Below are positions 4,705 through 63,532 of a DNA stretch of 64,000 nt, one piece after another; the first letter of the stretch is position 1, and the number at the start of each line of letters is the position of its first letter. This DNA is from Cytophagaceae bacterium (GTDB lineage Bacteria; Bacteroidota; Bacteroidia; Cytophagales; JAIYAX01): contig JAIYAX010000006.1 in NCBI GenBank assembly GCA_027488815.1, positions 98,185-162,184 of the forward strand, in the 5' to 3' direction. The position numbers were made by a program, and so were the translations under genes. Under the pieces are notes generated by a model. It had not been told where the DNA came from. It worked only from the letters and a program-made list of their open reading frames with translations, and did no database searches.

Positions 4705-7152
4705 TTACGCCCTCTTCCCGAAACGGAAAAATCCTGTCTTTGGTTTTATCCCTTTGTCCTCTGCATAGTAACCCCCGCCATAGCCGTATCCATAGCCATA
4801 GCCGTATCCATAGCCATAACCGTATCCATAAGAATACCCATATTTCTGCACCTGTATGTCGTTAAACACCATACTGAGGTTTTTCAACTTGCCGCTTTCA
4901 TACATCTCCTGTGCATGCCTGATCGTCCCTTTGGGGGTATAGTTTTGCCTAACCACATAGATGGTGTGATCGGCTTTTTCCATCAACTGTAAAGCATCCG
5001 TCACCAATCCTATGGGTGGGGTATCGACCACAATCACATCGTATCGTTCCCTTAAAATCTCCAATAGGTCGTTCATCCTTTTGGAAATCATCAACTCCGA
5101 TGGATTTGGAGGTATGGGCCCAGCGGAGAGCACATCGAGTTGGTCGATCATGGTAGGCTGTATGACTTCATCGATGCTGGCTGCACCTGCCAGGTAGCTG
5201 CTCAGACCTACTTTGTTGGTGAGGCCAAAATCCGCATAAATCTTGGGCTTACGCATATCGGCTCCGATCACCAGGGTCTTCTTGCCTGAGATGGCATATA
5301 CAGTACCGATATTGATAGAGCAAAAGGTCTTGCCCTCTCCACTGAGCGAGCTGGTCACCATGATCATCTTCTTCTCCTTATCAGGCGTGAAAAACTGTAT
5401 GTTGGAGCGTATCGAACGGAAACTTTCGGTGACGGCAGATTTGGGGTTTTTGTATACGGACAGATTCTCGCCGCTGTTATCATGCCCCACTGCCCCCAGA
5501 AAGGGGATATCGGTAATGGCACTGAGGTCTTCCCGGAAAATGATGGTCTGGTTGAGAAGATCTCTAACAAATATGATGGAAAAGGGCAGCAGCAGACCCA
5601 GGATAAATGCGATGGTGTAGTTCTGTTTGGTATTTGGGGCAATAGCTCCGCCGGTTTGCCGAGGCGGCTCGAAAAACTCCATGTCTGCAGAGGTAGCTGC
5701 ACGTTTGATAGCAGCTTCTGTCCGCTTTTCCAGTAAAAGCAAGTAAAGTTTCTCCCTAAGCCCGTACTGTCGGGTGATACTGATTAGCTGTCGCTCAGTA
5801 GAGGGGATGAGGCGAAGGTTGCTCTCAAGCCCATTGGCACGCTCCTGCAACTCTCTACGCTTCAGCCGGGCGGCATTGCGCTGGCTTTTGAGGTTTTCGA
5901 TGATCTCCGTTTTGAGGGAACTAAACTCTTTCAGCTTTTGGCGGATGATGGGGTTGTTTTCTTGTTTCTCCTTGTTAAAAGTGAGGCGTTCCCTTTGCAT
6001 ACTGATGAGGTCAACGATCAATCGGTTGAGCACAGGGTCTTCTACACCAAAGGTGGAGGGGATAAGCAGGTCTTCGTAATTGTCTTTGGTGCCGGTAATG
6101 TAAGACGAGATTTGTTCAAAATACTTGAGTTGCAATTCAACTTCGGCCTCTTGCGATTGCAGGCCGTTGAGCTCTTCAAGTATTCTTTCTCCTCTCACAC
6201 TCAGCTCACCCATAATGTTGTTTCCCGACTTGAACGACTGGAGCTTGCCTTCTATTTGATTCAGGGTGTCTGAAATTAAGGTTAGTTGCTCATCGATAAA
6301 ATAGATGGTTTGGTTAGCAACCTGTCGCTTCTCGTTGAGGTTTTGTTGGATGAATCGATTAACCAATGAAGACAGAAAATCGATTTCCTTCTGTGGGTCA
6401 GTACCCGTAGTTGATAAGCTGATGATGTTTGACCGGCCTTGTTTGTCAGAAAGTTCTGTAGCTATTTTACTTCTATAAAGCTCTGTAACTGCGTTAACGG
6501 AATTGAATTTCAGGATGTACTTGCTGCCTGTTTTTGGCTGCTCTCCGCTAGGTTTCAAAAACCTGCATTTGAATTTATCGAGAGTAATCTCTTCACCAAA
6601 GGCATGCACCCCATTTGGCAAGGCCTTGCCTGTTTCATTGGTTGAGTTGATTTTATATTGATCGTTATCAAGAACCTCGAAAACATATGATTTGCCTTCG
6701 GGGAAAAAGGCCAGGGTGTCATAGGCAAGCAGTGCCGGTCTGGGTTTGTACTCTTCGGTGGCCCGAATTCTGCCTTCCTTGATAAACGAATAGTGAAATC
6801 CCAGGTCAAGTATGGTTTCTCTTACGATAGGGTAGGCCTTGATCATCATTTGTTGATCAACAAGGGTGTTAAAATACCAAAGCGCATACCTCTGGCCAAA
6901 AAGCATAGCTGAAGGGTCCTCTGCAGCGTCTTTACTGGTTTTGAAGTAAACCCTGCCATTAACCGGGTAGATACGATCGGCATAGCGGTTTACCGTATAT
7001 GCGAACCCGAGTGCTAGGGCCAATGTGATGATAAACCAATACCAATTTTTTAGCGACTTATATAAAAGCCTCTTAAAAATACCAAGACTATCCCCTCTGG
7101 ACTCTTCCTGTGGGATAAACAGTTCTTTGGTGTTGGGGTAAGCCTGTCCCAT
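4705..7152 (-). CDS. wzc: Polysaccharide copolymerase / tyrosine autokinase (Wzc family)
   Basis: An 815-aa inner-membrane protein controlling chain length and export of exopolysaccharide. Residues about 36-55 form TM1 (NWYWFIITLALALGF); a Wzz-like periplasmic domain and a coiled-coil region (about 270-450) follow; TM2 is near 510-530 (IAFILGLLLPFSIIF). The cytoplasmic BY-kinase has Walker A SSLSGEGKT (about 600), Walker A' VIGADMRKP and Walker B VIVVDTPP. The C-terminus is a striking GYGYGYGYGY tract of alternating Gly and Tyr, the expected autophosphorylation cluster but unusually regular, encoded by imperfect 12-bp repeats. It follows the wza-type gene by one base, so both are co-transcribed. 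Family assignment is firm. Confidence 0.95.
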   Translation of the reverse strand: MGQAYPNTKELFIPQEESRGDSLGIFKRLLYKSLKNWYWFIITLALALGFAYTVNRYADRIYPVNGRVYFKTSKDAAEDPSAMLFGQRYALWYFNTLVDQQMMIKAYPIVRETILDLGFHYSFIKEGRIRATEEYKPRPALLAYDTLAFFPEGKSYVFEVLDNDQYKINSTNETGKALPNGVHAFGEEITLDKFKCRFLKPSGEQPKTGSKYILKFNSVNAVTELYRSKIATELSDKQGRSNIISLSTTGTDPQKEIDFLSSLVNRFIQQNLNEKRQVANQTIYFIDEQLTLISDTLNQIEGKLQSFKSGNNIMGELSVRGERILEELNGLQSQEAEVELQLKYFEQISSYITGTKDNYEDLLIPSTFGVEDPVLNRLIVDLISMQRERLTFNKEKQENNPIIRQKLKEFSSLKTEIIENLKSQRNAARLKRRELQERANGLESNLRLIPSTERQLISITRQYGLREKLYLLLLEKRTEAAIKRAATSADMEFFEPPRQTGGAIAPNTKQNYTIAFILGLLLPFSIIFVRDLLNQTIIFREDLSAITDIPFLGAVGHDNSGENLSVYKNPKSAVTESFRSIRSNIQFFTPDKEKKMIMVTSSLSGEGKTFCSINIGTVYAISGKKTLVIGADMRKPKIYADFGLTNKVGLSSYLAGAASIDEVIQPTMIDQLDVLSAGPIPPNPSELMISKRMNDLLEILRERYDVIVVDTPPIGLVTDALQLMEKADHTIYVVRQNYTPKGTIRHAQEMYESGKLKNLSMVFNDIQVQKYGYSYGYGYGYGYGYGYGYGYGGGYYAEDKGIKPKTGFFRFGKRA
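4771..4840. repeat. Imperfect 6/12-bp tandem repeat encoding the Gly-Tyr tail of Wzc
   Basis: Runs of CCATAGCCGTATCCATAG-type units (minus-strand codons TAT GGC TAC GGA). The 12-bp period makes the tract prone to slippage, which would change tyrosine number without frameshift. Confidence 0.8.
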
Positions 7153-60327: not shown

Positions 60328-61515
60328 TTAGCCGCCAATATTTGGCGACCTCCGCTTGGCAATCATACTTCTTAAAATGTCAGTATTTGCTATGTAGCCT
60401 GCACTTGACTTGCGGACGAGTTCTAATTCAATAAGCTTTTCAACATCTCTTTGGATAGTTTTTTCAGAGACACCAGAGCCAGAGTACAGTTTTGCTAAAG
60501 GCACAGACAAACTTGACGCTTGGGCTATTGTAAATTCTTTTTCAAAGGGAATCTCCAAAGCAAGTGTCCTTTGCCTTCTAAAAACCTCTTCACGACTTCC
60601 CTGGCGAATAGCATCGAATTTGTCATAAATCAGCTTCTGCCAGGTATTTTGAAATTGGCTCTTCTGAATTACATCAAGCGTTTGTGCAAGACCGTCTCTG
60701 AAGCCAAGCAGAGCATATTCAATAAAGTTCGACAAGTTCCTGCTTTCAGTTGCCTTTTCAATTTGCAGGTAGTATGCCGTTCGGGTCATATTGTAGTAGT
60801 TTGACAAAATATGTGAGGCAATATCAGGGTTGCCCCCTCTCAATAGAATATAGAATTCTACAAGACGGCCAGTGCGGCCATTGCCATCTCCAAACGGGTG
60901 AATCCATTCAATGTAAACATGGGTTACGATAGCCTGCACAACTACCTCTGAAAACGATTGCTCCCCTTGACCAAACCTAAACTCCTCTTTCAACCATTGA
61001 CAAAGCCTGTCAAGCAGGATTGGAACATCTCTATGGTCAGGACACCTGTAACGACCTACGATAACATCGGAGTTTCTCAATTGACCAGGAATAGCGGCAA
61101 AATGTTCTCCTAAATTTTGCCCGACCATTGTGTGAAATCGCAAAAGCAAATCTCTGGAAATATAGTGGTCAACCCCTGTATTGATTATTTCATCTAGCAA
61201 AACATTGAAGGTGTTGAGGATATTCTTAACCTCTATCTCCTGATACTCCTTACTTGGTGGCAGCTTCTGGTTGTCCATAATCTTTTGCACCTCTTCATCT
61301 GACAATGTGTTGCCTTCAATGGCAGTTGTTGCCTGTGCCCCTTTCATCAATGCAACATTCATCAATTGGCTGTAGTGATGGGGCAAAATTGGCGTGTTGT
61401 TTATGGCCTTTACATACGCTTCACACTGACCCAGAAGCATAAGCGCTTTTGCAGACAAATCCCAATGTCTGCGAAACATCAAATGTGGGTACTCTCTGTT
61501 TAACTCCTTAGACAT
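60328..61515 (-). CDS. fic: Fic-domain AMPylase-like protein with C-terminal winged helix
   Basis: 395 aa. The N-terminal inhibitory helix motif TTAIEGNTL (near residue 62) matches (S/T)xxxE(G/N), the class II autoinhibited type. The Fic active-site loop HPFGDGNGRTGRL (near 215) is fully conserved, so AMP transfer from ATP is possible. Residues about 340-385 form a winged helix (SGVSEKTIQRDVEKLIEL), so it may bind DNA, and self-regulate through the ATGTCT repeats on its promoter. No antitoxin gene is adjacent. ATG 61515 is chosen because it lies in register with the repeats. Confidence 0.92.
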   Translation of the reverse strand: MSKELNREYPHLMFRRHWDLSAKALMLLGQCEAYVKAINNTPILPHHYSQLMNVALMKGAQATTAIEGNTLSDEEVQKIMDNQKLPPSKEYQEIEVKNILNTFNVLLDEIINTGVDHYISRDLLLRFHTMVGQNLGEHFAAIPGQLRNSDVIVGRYRCPDHRDVPILLDRLCQWLKEEFRFGQGEQSFSEVVVQAIVTHVYIEWIHPFGDGNGRTGRLVEFYILLRGGNPDIASHILSNYYNMTRTAYYLQIEKATESRNLSNFIEYALLGFRDGLAQTLDVIQKSQFQNTWQKLIYDKFDAIRQGSREEVFRRQRTLALEIPFEKEFTIAQASSLSVPLAKLYSGSGVSEKTIQRDVEKLIELELVRKSSAGYIANTDILRSMIAKRRSPNIGG

Positions 61516-61575
61516 TTATTGAGACATTTAGCTAGACATTATCAAAGACATAAGTATGGACAAATATAGAGACAT
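61504..61575 (-). repeat. Six-unit 12-bp ATGTCT tandem array over the fic promoter, leader and start
   Basis: Units of exactly 12 bp on the minus strand from 61575 down: ATGTCTCTATAT, TTGTCCATACTT, ATGTCTTTGATA, ATGTCTAGCTAA, ATGTCTCAATAA, ATGTCTAAGGAG (the last starts fic). All are in one frame; units 4 and 5 read Met-Ser-X-stop. Confidence 0.85.
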
Positions 61576-61591
61576 TTTGAGCACAATCAAG
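61561..61591 (-). promoter_or_regulatory. fic promoter CTTG-N19-TATATTTG
   Basis: -33-like CTTG (61588-61591), 19-bp spacer, perfect -7 TATATTTG (61561-61568), within repeat units 1 and 2. Predicted start near 61554, giving a leader of about 39 nt that spans units 3-5. Confidence 0.7.
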
Positions 61592-61608
61592 CGTTTTGTG
61601 GATTGGCT

Positions 61609-61719
61609 TTATTCGTTTGCAGGTGAAGTATAGGTATAGTTAACACGGGTATCCCTAGCAAAACCAGGTTTGTTTCCCGCTTCCCAAATAGTTGATGTTC
61701 CGTCACCAACCAAAGTGTG
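61609..61719 (-). other. Short open-frame remnant upstream of fic
   Basis: A 36-codon frame without a start, read from a stop at about 61720 to TAA 61609-61611: HTLVGDGTSTIWEAG then NKPGFARDTRVNYTY and TSPANE. It overlaps the 3' end of direct repeat B. The residue pattern looks protein-like, but the family is not recognised; it may be a decayed C-terminus. Confidence 0.35.
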
Positions 61720-61801
61720 GCCCTAAAAAGATCAGTGACTATGCTCTAAACACTTTCGGACAAAATACTGCATCGCCCTTGTTTGGCAAGAGGGCGATTG
61801 G
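61702..61801. repeat. Diverged direct repeat B upstream of fic
   Basis: Partner of 60198-60299. It also holds a hairpin (ATCGCCCT/AGGGCGAT, 61771-61799) that may terminate the SBBP gene on the minus strand. With repeat A it brackets fic and its promoter. Confidence 0.65.
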
Positions 61802-61819
61802 GTTTAGGTCATCAACCTT

Positions 61820-63532
61820 TCATTCCTTTACCAACTTCAGCACCGTTTGCCCTTGAGGGGTTTTTACACTCAAAAAGTAAATTCCAGATGGGCCGGCAAT
61901 GTTGATTTGCTCATCGGTTACCGCATCAAGCTCTTTGGTAAACACTGTTTTCCCCTGTAAATCAGTGACTCTAATTTCTACGTCATTCATGGGTTGTTCG
62001 AAGGTAAGTTGTAACAGGCCCTCGCTTGGGTTGGGGAAGGCCTTTACTTGAACACCTTTCGCTATTTCCACCAATCCGGTTACACCTCCCTGGCTCATTT
62101 TATGAACGAAAACATCATTGAACCCTGCTGAAATAAGGTTAGCTGTTCCTGCTCCCGGATCGAAATCTGCTGTCCCTACAAACGCTCCAGTGGTATATAC
62201 ATTCCCTTAAGCATCTACCGTTATGGAAAAGCCTTCATCAGAAGAGCTGCCACCAAAGGATCTTGCCCATAGAAAATTACCGGAAGCGTCTAATTTCTGA
62301 ACAAAAACATCTCTATCCCCTGCTGAAGAAAGGCTAGCGGTTCCTGTACCCGGATCAAAATCTACGGTTCCTTCAAATATCCCAGTGGAATATATACTCC
62401 CTGAAGCATCTATAGTGATGGAGCTCACATCTTCATTAAAGCTGCCACCAAAGGGCCTGGCCCAAAGAAAATTACCGGAAGCGTCTAGTTTTTGCACGAA
62501 AATATCATCGCCTCCTGCTGATGTGAGGTTAGCTGTTCCTGCTCCAGGATCAAAATCTACTGTTCCAACAAAAATTCCAGAGGTATAGACATTCCCTAAA
62601 GCATCCACCGAGATCGAAGACACAAAATTATTTGAAGTGCTGCCAAAAGACCTGGCCCAAAGAAAATTACCGGAAGCGTCCAGTTTTTGAACGAAAACAT
62701 CTATGTTCCCAGCTGAAGTGAGGTTAGCTATTCCTGCTCCCGGATTGAAATCTACTGTTCCCAAAAATGTTCCTGTGGTATAGACATTCCCTGAAGGATC
62801 TACCGATATCGAAACTCCATAATCATCGGAACTGTCACCAAAGGACCTGGCCCACAGAAAATTTCCGTAAGTGTCCAGTTTTTGAACGAAAATATCCCTG
62901 CTCCCTACTGAATTAAGGTTAGCTGTTCCTGCTCCAGGATCAAAATCTACTGTTCCTGCAAAGTATCCTATGGTATAGACATTCCCTGAAGGATCTATTG
63001 TGGAAGACCCCCCTCCATCATAAGCGAGGCCACCAAAGGATCTGGCCCATAGAAAGTTACCTGAAGCTCCTAGTTTTTGAATAAAAACATCTGCGGATCC
63101 TGCTGAAGAAAGAATAGCAGTTCCTGCCCCTGGATCAAAATCTCCTGTTCCTTCAAAGTATCCTGTGGTGTATACATTTCCTGCAGTATCTGTCTTGATC
63201 GAAAATCCAATATCAAAAGAGCTGCCACCACTACCAAAGGACCTGGCCCATTGAAAATTACCCGAAGCGTCCAGTTTTTGAACGAAAACATCAACAGATG
63301 CTACTGATGTCAGGTTAGCTGTTCCTGCTCCCGGATCAAAATCTACTGTTCCTACAAAGTATCCAGTAGTGTAGAGATTCCCTGAAGCATCAACTTTGAT
63401 GGACCGCCCTTCATCATATGAACTTCCACCAAATGACCTGGCCCATTCAAAGGTTTGGGCGTGGGCTAAGCTAACTCCGATTGTGATCAGGATAGCGAGC
63501 GTGGTTTTTAACAATTGCTTACTTGTTGTCAT
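61820..63532 (-). pseudogene. SBBP-repeat T9SS surface protein, split by a nonsense codon
   Basis: The two track ORFs 62207-63532 and 61820-62098 are one frame of 570 codons broken by TAA at 62207-62209. Around it the frame reads ITVDA-stop-GNVYTTG, where the other repeats have DPSGNVYTTG or DALGNVYTSG, so TCA to TAA is likely. After a signal peptide (LAILITIGVSLAHAQ), seven units of about 65 aa follow (DFDPGAGTANL ... VFVQKLDASGNFLWARSFG), with a T9SS type A tail at the end (VQVKAFPNPSEG ... GIYFLSVKTPQGQTVLKLVKE). Without read-through, the exported product lacks its sorting domain. A sequencing error must be excluded. Confidence 0.85.

Follow-up and report, generated by a model that had tools for sequence, protein, structure and literature searches.

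The promoter, leader and start codon of a fic gene from a Cytophagaceae bacterium are overlaid by six half-sites in exact 12-bp register. We consider it probable, at roughly four chances in five, that this array is a promoter-embedded operator through which Fic would repress its own gene by means of its C-terminal winged helix. The window analysed here is the whole stretch of 64,000 nucleotides that contains the gene. Class II enzymes make up most Fic proteins, and the control of their abundance and activity is poorly understood (PMC9755527). A sequence-defined operator that accompanies a single Fic clade in several phyla identifies the DNA involved and makes the autoregulation of solitary SoFic-like enzymes directly testable.

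The array on the fic promoter

Read 5' to 3', the minus strand at 61576-61505 is AATGTCTCTATA TTTGTCCATACT TATGTCTTTGAT AATGTCTAGCTA AATGTCTCAATA AATGTCTAAGGA. The sequence-only reading had described six units in exact 12-bp register up to the fic ATG, and this was confirmed on the minus strand. The units are real, with two corrections to their description: the array spans 61505-61576 when the base before each ATG is counted, and unit 2 is degenerate, reading TTGTCC where the other five of the six units hold an exact ATGTCT. Ahead of the start codon of fic come four exact copies and the TTGTCC copy; the start codon itself begins the sixth unit. The features are listed below, where L-numbers are labels of homologous fic loci.

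60328..61515, minus strand: fic, encoding a 395-aa class II Fic enzyme with SoFic-type domain order, active site HPFGDGNGRTGR and inhibitory motif TTAIEGN
60364..60591, minus strand: part of fic coding for the predicted winged helix (residues about 309-384; AlphaFold2 model and alignment)
61561..61568, minus strand: putative -7 box TATATTTG (TAnnTTTG) of the fic promoter, Bacteroidota type
61565..61576, minus strand: putative operator unit 1 (AATGTCTCTATA), in the promoter spacer, immediately before the -7 box; same position in L031
61553..61564, minus strand: putative operator unit 2 (TTTGTCCATACT), sharing its TTTG with the -7 box; the resulting fusion of box and half-site, TAnnTTTGTC, is also present in L031, L066 and L071
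61541..61552, minus strand: putative operator unit 3 (TATGTCTTTGAT), just past the inferred transcription start
61529..61540, minus strand: putative operator unit 4 (AATGTCTAGCTA), in the inferred mRNA leader
61517..61528, minus strand: putative operator unit 5 (AATGTCTCAATA), in the inferred mRNA leader
61505..61516, minus strand: putative operator unit 6 (AATGTCTAAGGA), holding the fic ATG; the arrays of L031, L035, L066 and L080 likewise end on the start codon

The start codon of fic occupies 61515-61513 of the minus strand. The -7 box at 61568-61561 was present as the sequence-only reading had described it, as were the mini-frames ATG-TCT-AGC-TAA of unit 4 and ATG-TCT-CAA-TAA of unit 5. 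In the published geometry of the Bacteroidota promoter, the -7 box extends from T-12 to G-5 (PMC6847099); applying this geometry places the fic transcription start near 61556, which would give a leader of about 41 nt. A scan for sigma-70-type promoters and terminators returned nothing exceeding chance. Most desulfobacterial copies of the gene have the promoter TTGAC-N17-TAnnnT, with half-sites on the -35 element, in the spacer and just past the -10 element. Such positions on promoter elements would favour repression. As far as sequence evidence goes, fic encodes a Fic protein with a repeat operator overlapping its own promoter.

The array stands alone in its surroundings. Elsewhere on the minus strand of the window, no set of at least four identical hexamers among six in phase was found at periods of 7-29 bp, and at the array itself TRF made only a weak period-12 call of 2.7 copies. 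Rfam identified no known RNA element in 61000-62200. Across the 3.37-Mb genome, the pattern WTGTC-N7-WTGTC-N7-WTGTC matched only at fic (four overlapping matches), and a reversed-pattern control matched once. Half-site pairs were not enriched genome-wide outside fic, with 35 occurrences, including 5 at fic, against 53 for the reversed-pattern control. With no second three-unit array in the genome and no excess of pairs, there is no sign of a regulon.

Conservation of the half-site lattice

A scan of GTDB genome contigs recovered 44 close fic relatives from Bacteroidota, Thermodesulfobacteriota/'Deltaproteobacteria', Gemmatimonadota, Acidobacteriota, Deinococcota and Nitrospirota and from bins labelled Actinobacteria, Gammaproteobacteria and Altiarchaeales. 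Forty orthologues from several phyla, 43-89% identical and mostly from MAG contigs, were scored for the lattice. Among the relatives compared, the conserved half-site core was (T)TTGTC / WTGTC and not ATGTCT. Half-sites of the same orientation in the fic upstream regions are 12 bp apart, and divergent half-sites keep a fixed offset of 15 bp between the first bases of their [AT]TGTC cores, or 27 bp (12 + 15) where the middle site is weak.

The sequence-only reading had proposed aligning relatives to see whether the units and their 12-bp phase persist, and the lattice, with its (T)TTGTC core, was found in most of the orthologues. A lattice score of at least 4.4, in a scheme designed after the first 40 regions had been viewed, was reached by 31 of the 40 fic upstream regions (the other 9 scored lower), against 1 of 140 upstream regions of other ORFs and 37 of 3814 random windows from the same contigs. 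At a score of at least 6.4, the corresponding counts were 19 of 40, 0 of 140 and 0 of 3814; as orthologues share ancestry, p-values from such counts are not those of independent samples. On the same contigs, same-orientation 12-bp [AT]TGTC pairs occurred 23 times in 7,200 bp upstream of fic and 3 times in 243,060 bp elsewhere, while inverted pairs occurred 9 times against once at 27 bp and 4 times against once at 15 bp. A motif-free 5-mer autocorrelation of the fic upstream regions, which left out the window and L031, peaked at 12, 24 and 36 bp with values of 51, 22 and 8, over a background of mostly 1-2 with 9 at 16 bp and 6 at 35 bp.

Loci that had not entered the design of the pattern also fitted it. 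L080, from a genome, scored 10.0, with the ATGTC of its start codon as the last unit, and the viral-contig loci L101, L104 and L113 scored 9.0, 9.2 and 9.0; L113 is only 36% identical and has five units in phase. The lattice was absent from the later-fetched L081, L082/L105 and L106 and from the more distant L083-L088, so that its conservation is, on this comparison, wide and not universal. The three viral-contig loci are IMG/VR predicted viral contigs that carry a related fic together with the lattice, pointing to carriage of such genes by phage or prophage.

The number and orientation of the half-sites vary from about 3 to 8, direct or inverted, which provides ready EMSA probes with built-in mutants. 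Bacteroidota copies mostly carry tandem arrays: L031 has six units at the positions found in the window, L033 has eight, L034 four, L035 six and L071 six. L036 has four half-sites, all in the opposite orientation. Desulfobacterial copies typically have two left-pointing half-sites and one right-pointing half-site straddling the -35/-10 elements. A maximum-likelihood tree built from 47 Fic proteins placed the seven nearest Bacteroidota copies, each with a direct array, in one supported group (100/98). A larger supported group around it also took in L066 and L080, in which direct and inverted sites are mixed. The desulfobacterial group, with the Altiarchaeales-labelled bin in it, has mostly inverted triplets. 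L040, the contig from that bin, carries a fic nearest to that of Desulfosudis; the promoter is bacterial (TTGACA-N17) and the lattice is the same, which reflects either a recent transfer or a mis-binned contig.

Comparison of the window with L031 separated the cores from the sequence between them. The TGTC cores were identical at 24 of 24 positions and the linkers at 30 of 48 (Fisher p = 0.0002), and the third codon positions of fic were 59% identical with a protein identity of 89%. Because the cores are intact while linkers and third positions have diverged to this extent, the array is not a young slippage product. In L033, three nearly identical TTTTGACCTAAA units stand in a row about 60-100 bases before fic, and on this evidence operator arrays can evidently lengthen by 12-bp slippage. 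A neutral tandem repeat grown in this manner (a slippage VNTR), or an iteron-like replication element, with no role for fic in either case, is nevertheless a most improbable account of the whole: the cores are conserved while the linkers diverge, the phase holds even between linkers that have no sequence in common, and fic has no recurrent replication gene next to it.

Fic as the candidate binder

The fic product matched the Pfam Fic domain with E = 4.7e-17, and its HPFGDGNGRTGR agrees with the active-site motif HxFx(D/E)GNGRxxR, being near-invariant in 40 aligned sequences. TTAIEGN at residues 63-69 of the same chain agrees with the class II motif (S/T)xxxE(G/N), and T63, A65, I66, E67, G68 and N69 are invariant in the alignment of 40 sequences. 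The PADLOC SoFic profile PDLC03963 aligned over nearly the full length (residues 19-381; E = 1.5e-56). Because the score of 50.8 bits falls far below the cut-off of 550 of the NCBIfam SoFic equivalog NF046030, the protein is best classed by sequence as a distant SoFic relative and not as SoFic itself. It is likely an anti-phage toxin enzyme. Plasmid-borne relatives reach an identity of only about 28%.

An AlphaFold2 model built with 40 sequences (mean pLDDT 86.9) predicted a C-terminal DeoR-like winged helix at residues about 309-384, in agreement with the domain proposed by the sequence-only reading. Its elements are helices 330-335, 338-345 and 351-363 and wing strands 367-369 and 374-376; the recognition helix 351-363 bears the conserved T353, R356 and D357, and the wing spans 367-376. 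The top PDB neighbours of the model were CbFic2 (the best), a Desulfovibrio Fic, CccR, a mycobacterial Fic and SoFic, with 7XUX (CccR) and 8CIL (CbFic2) among the structural matches. Inspection of recognition-helix residues against half-site sequence within the clade revealed no clear covariation rule. The lattice-less L067, L103, L105 and L106 have changed recognition helices; those of L113 and L117 differ too, yet both loci keep GACA repeats.

The view of the gene as a Fic without antitoxin held in part. It is solitary, in that no recurring neighbour ORF of at least 70 codons was found across 44 loci, a limit below which antitoxins like AS1 of E. coli Sofic, reported at 47 residues (PMC12249575), would escape; as a class II Fic, however, it has its own inhibitory helix (TTAIEGN). 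No gene other than fic recurs widely beside it in the 44 loci, the other recurrent ORFs being shadow frames of fic or common to at most three loci. With no recurring neighbour, the factor that travels with the site would most simply be Fic.

We infer the following mechanism. The DeoR-like winged helix of Fic would recognise the half-site (T)TTGTC. Six copies of this half-site, head-to-tail and 12 bp apart, extend from the spacer over the -7 box and the inferred start as far as the fic ATG. Rising Fic levels would fill them with adjacent molecules, probably in a cooperative manner, covering the -7 box and the start region and shutting off fic transcription. A potentially toxic AMP-transferase may in this way be held at a low set level. 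A cooperatively bound operator had been suggested from the sequence beforehand, along with autoregulation; the comparative evidence argues strongly for an operator and for autoregulation. A counterpoint is that the C2-symmetric Fic dimer in crystals of CccR, SoFic and CbFic2 suits inverted sites better than the postulated head-to-tail binding to six direct repeats. It is a structural puzzle how one winged helix would serve direct repeats spaced by 12 bp as well as inverted pairs whose offset is fixed. We regard as speculative and rather unlikely a further version, in which a head-to-tail Fic filament on the array makes the operator DNA both a repression site and a store setting enzyme activity, from which an infection signal would strip Fic, causing derepression and the release or activation of the AMP-transferase.

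The binder might instead be another host regulator or a regulator shared by a defence island. The sites overlap promoter elements as those of any repressor would, and Fic is itself a predicted binder. However, fic keeps this half-site and spacing in several phyla while no neighbour gene recurs, and its own genome has no three-unit array away from fic and no enrichment of pairs. A host regulator would have to conserve its specificity across phyla, yet have no other target gene in this genome; we therefore hold this reading to be unlikely. An equally small chance is given to Fic binding the lattice to activate its own promoter, or chiefly to switch its enzyme activity with DNA as an allosteric effector. 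DNA binding does stimulate (de)AMPylation by CbFic2 (PMC10628234), and arrays that reach into the leader exceed the length required by a simple repressor, but half-sites on the -7 box, on the -35/-10 elements and in the inferred start region occupy positions typical of repression, and CccR, the closest tested relative by function, is an autorepressor.

Translational control, in which tandem mini-ORFs of the form Met-Ser-X-stop, or stacked starts, would hold back Fic synthesis, had been offered as a second reading of the array. In this one genome, units 4 and 5 do read Met-Ser-Ser-stop and Met-Ser-Gln-stop in the fic frame within the inferred leader. The conserved core TTTGTC/WTGTC, however, is without ATG, and the corresponding lattice positions of orthologues read TTTGTC, GTTGTC or ATTGTC. 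L031 keeps an ATG before the start codon in units 1 and 5 only, of which unit 1 lies upstream of the -7 box and unit 5 reads Met-Ser-stop; in L033, L036 and the desulfobacterial set, most or all half-sites have no ATG. The desulfobacterial half-sites are moreover inverted and lie within promoter elements, and the A+T-rich linkers of Bacteroidota supply stops by chance. The uORF reading was rejected as a conserved function because the ATGs are not conserved and the desulfobacterial sites lie in promoter elements; there is hardly any chance that it explains the array, and a minor translational effect may exist in this genome.

Known Fic systems and other features of the window

CccR of Yersinia pseudotuberculosis is a class II Fic with a C-terminal HTH that binds and represses its own promoter (PMC9755527; PDB 7XUX). 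It resembles the protein studied here in class, inhibitory helix and C-terminal DNA-binding domain, and is a structural neighbour of the model, with about 20% identity in the structural alignment. Its operator, a single 46-nt inverted repeat AGATAATCAT-N26-ATGATAATCT (PMC9755527), differs in sequence and layout from the 12-bp TTTGTC lattice. The form of that operator, a long-spaced inverted 10-bp repeat, was not found at fic, which has a direct 12-bp array, with inverted triplets in desulfobacterial relatives. CccR is also a T6SS effector. In a literature search that covered few subscription papers, CccR was the sole Fic reported to act on a mapped operator of its own through a DNA-binding domain in the same protein. 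Fic autorepression as a kind is thus already known. What appears to be new is the tandem 12-bp lattice: how long it is, how it merges with the -7 box and how widely it is spread over phyla.

In CbFic2 from Coxiella burnetii (PDB 8CIL), the HTH binds DNA, and this binding stimulates the enzyme (PMC10628234). CbFic2 has an HTH like that predicted here and is the best structural neighbour of the model, but the published work used random DNA and described no operator (PMC10628234). As for binding mode, the winged-helix regulators BldC and PhoP bind side by side on head-to-tail direct repeats, BldC on 9-bp repeats of variable copy number (PMC5859096) and PhoP of M. tuberculosis on 7-bp motifs with a 4-bp spacer (PMC4832192). 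These are analogies of binding mode only, as neither is a Fic protein and their repeats measure 9 and 11 bp against 12. Class I Fic/antitoxin modules (FicT-FicA, VbhT-VbhA) have a separate adjoining antitoxin gene, whereas at fic none of at least 70 codons recurs.

The SoFic-type anti-phage Fics (PDLC03963; PDB 3EQX, 3ZCN; E. coli Sofic, PMC12249575) are likewise solitary class II enzymes with the same domain order. Canonical Bacteroidota SoFics were ruled out as carriers of the same array: 30 of them had no 12-bp array (autocorrelation of 3 at 12 bp), and the T..RD recognition-helix signature was absent in 20 aligned sequences. Inspected by eye, the canonical SoFics L161, L164, L168, L177, L183 and L187 had blocks of their own, inverted or repeated and unlike the lattice, ahead of the start codon, for instance TGTATAGAAAA...TTTTCTATACA in L177. 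Autoregulation with clade-specific operators may be widespread among SoFic-like genes.

Two further features of the window were observed. At 61820-63532 on the minus strand, a beta-propeller (SBBP) repeat gene is followed in the same frame by a type IX secretion sorting tail (Por_Secre_tail), and a single in-frame TAA at 62207-62209 separates the tail from the repeat part; the gene looks newly broken, or a base of the TAA is an assembly error. A tandem repeat at 4777-4842 consists of three copies of an 18-bp unit, GCCATAGCCGTATCCATA, with 97% matches.
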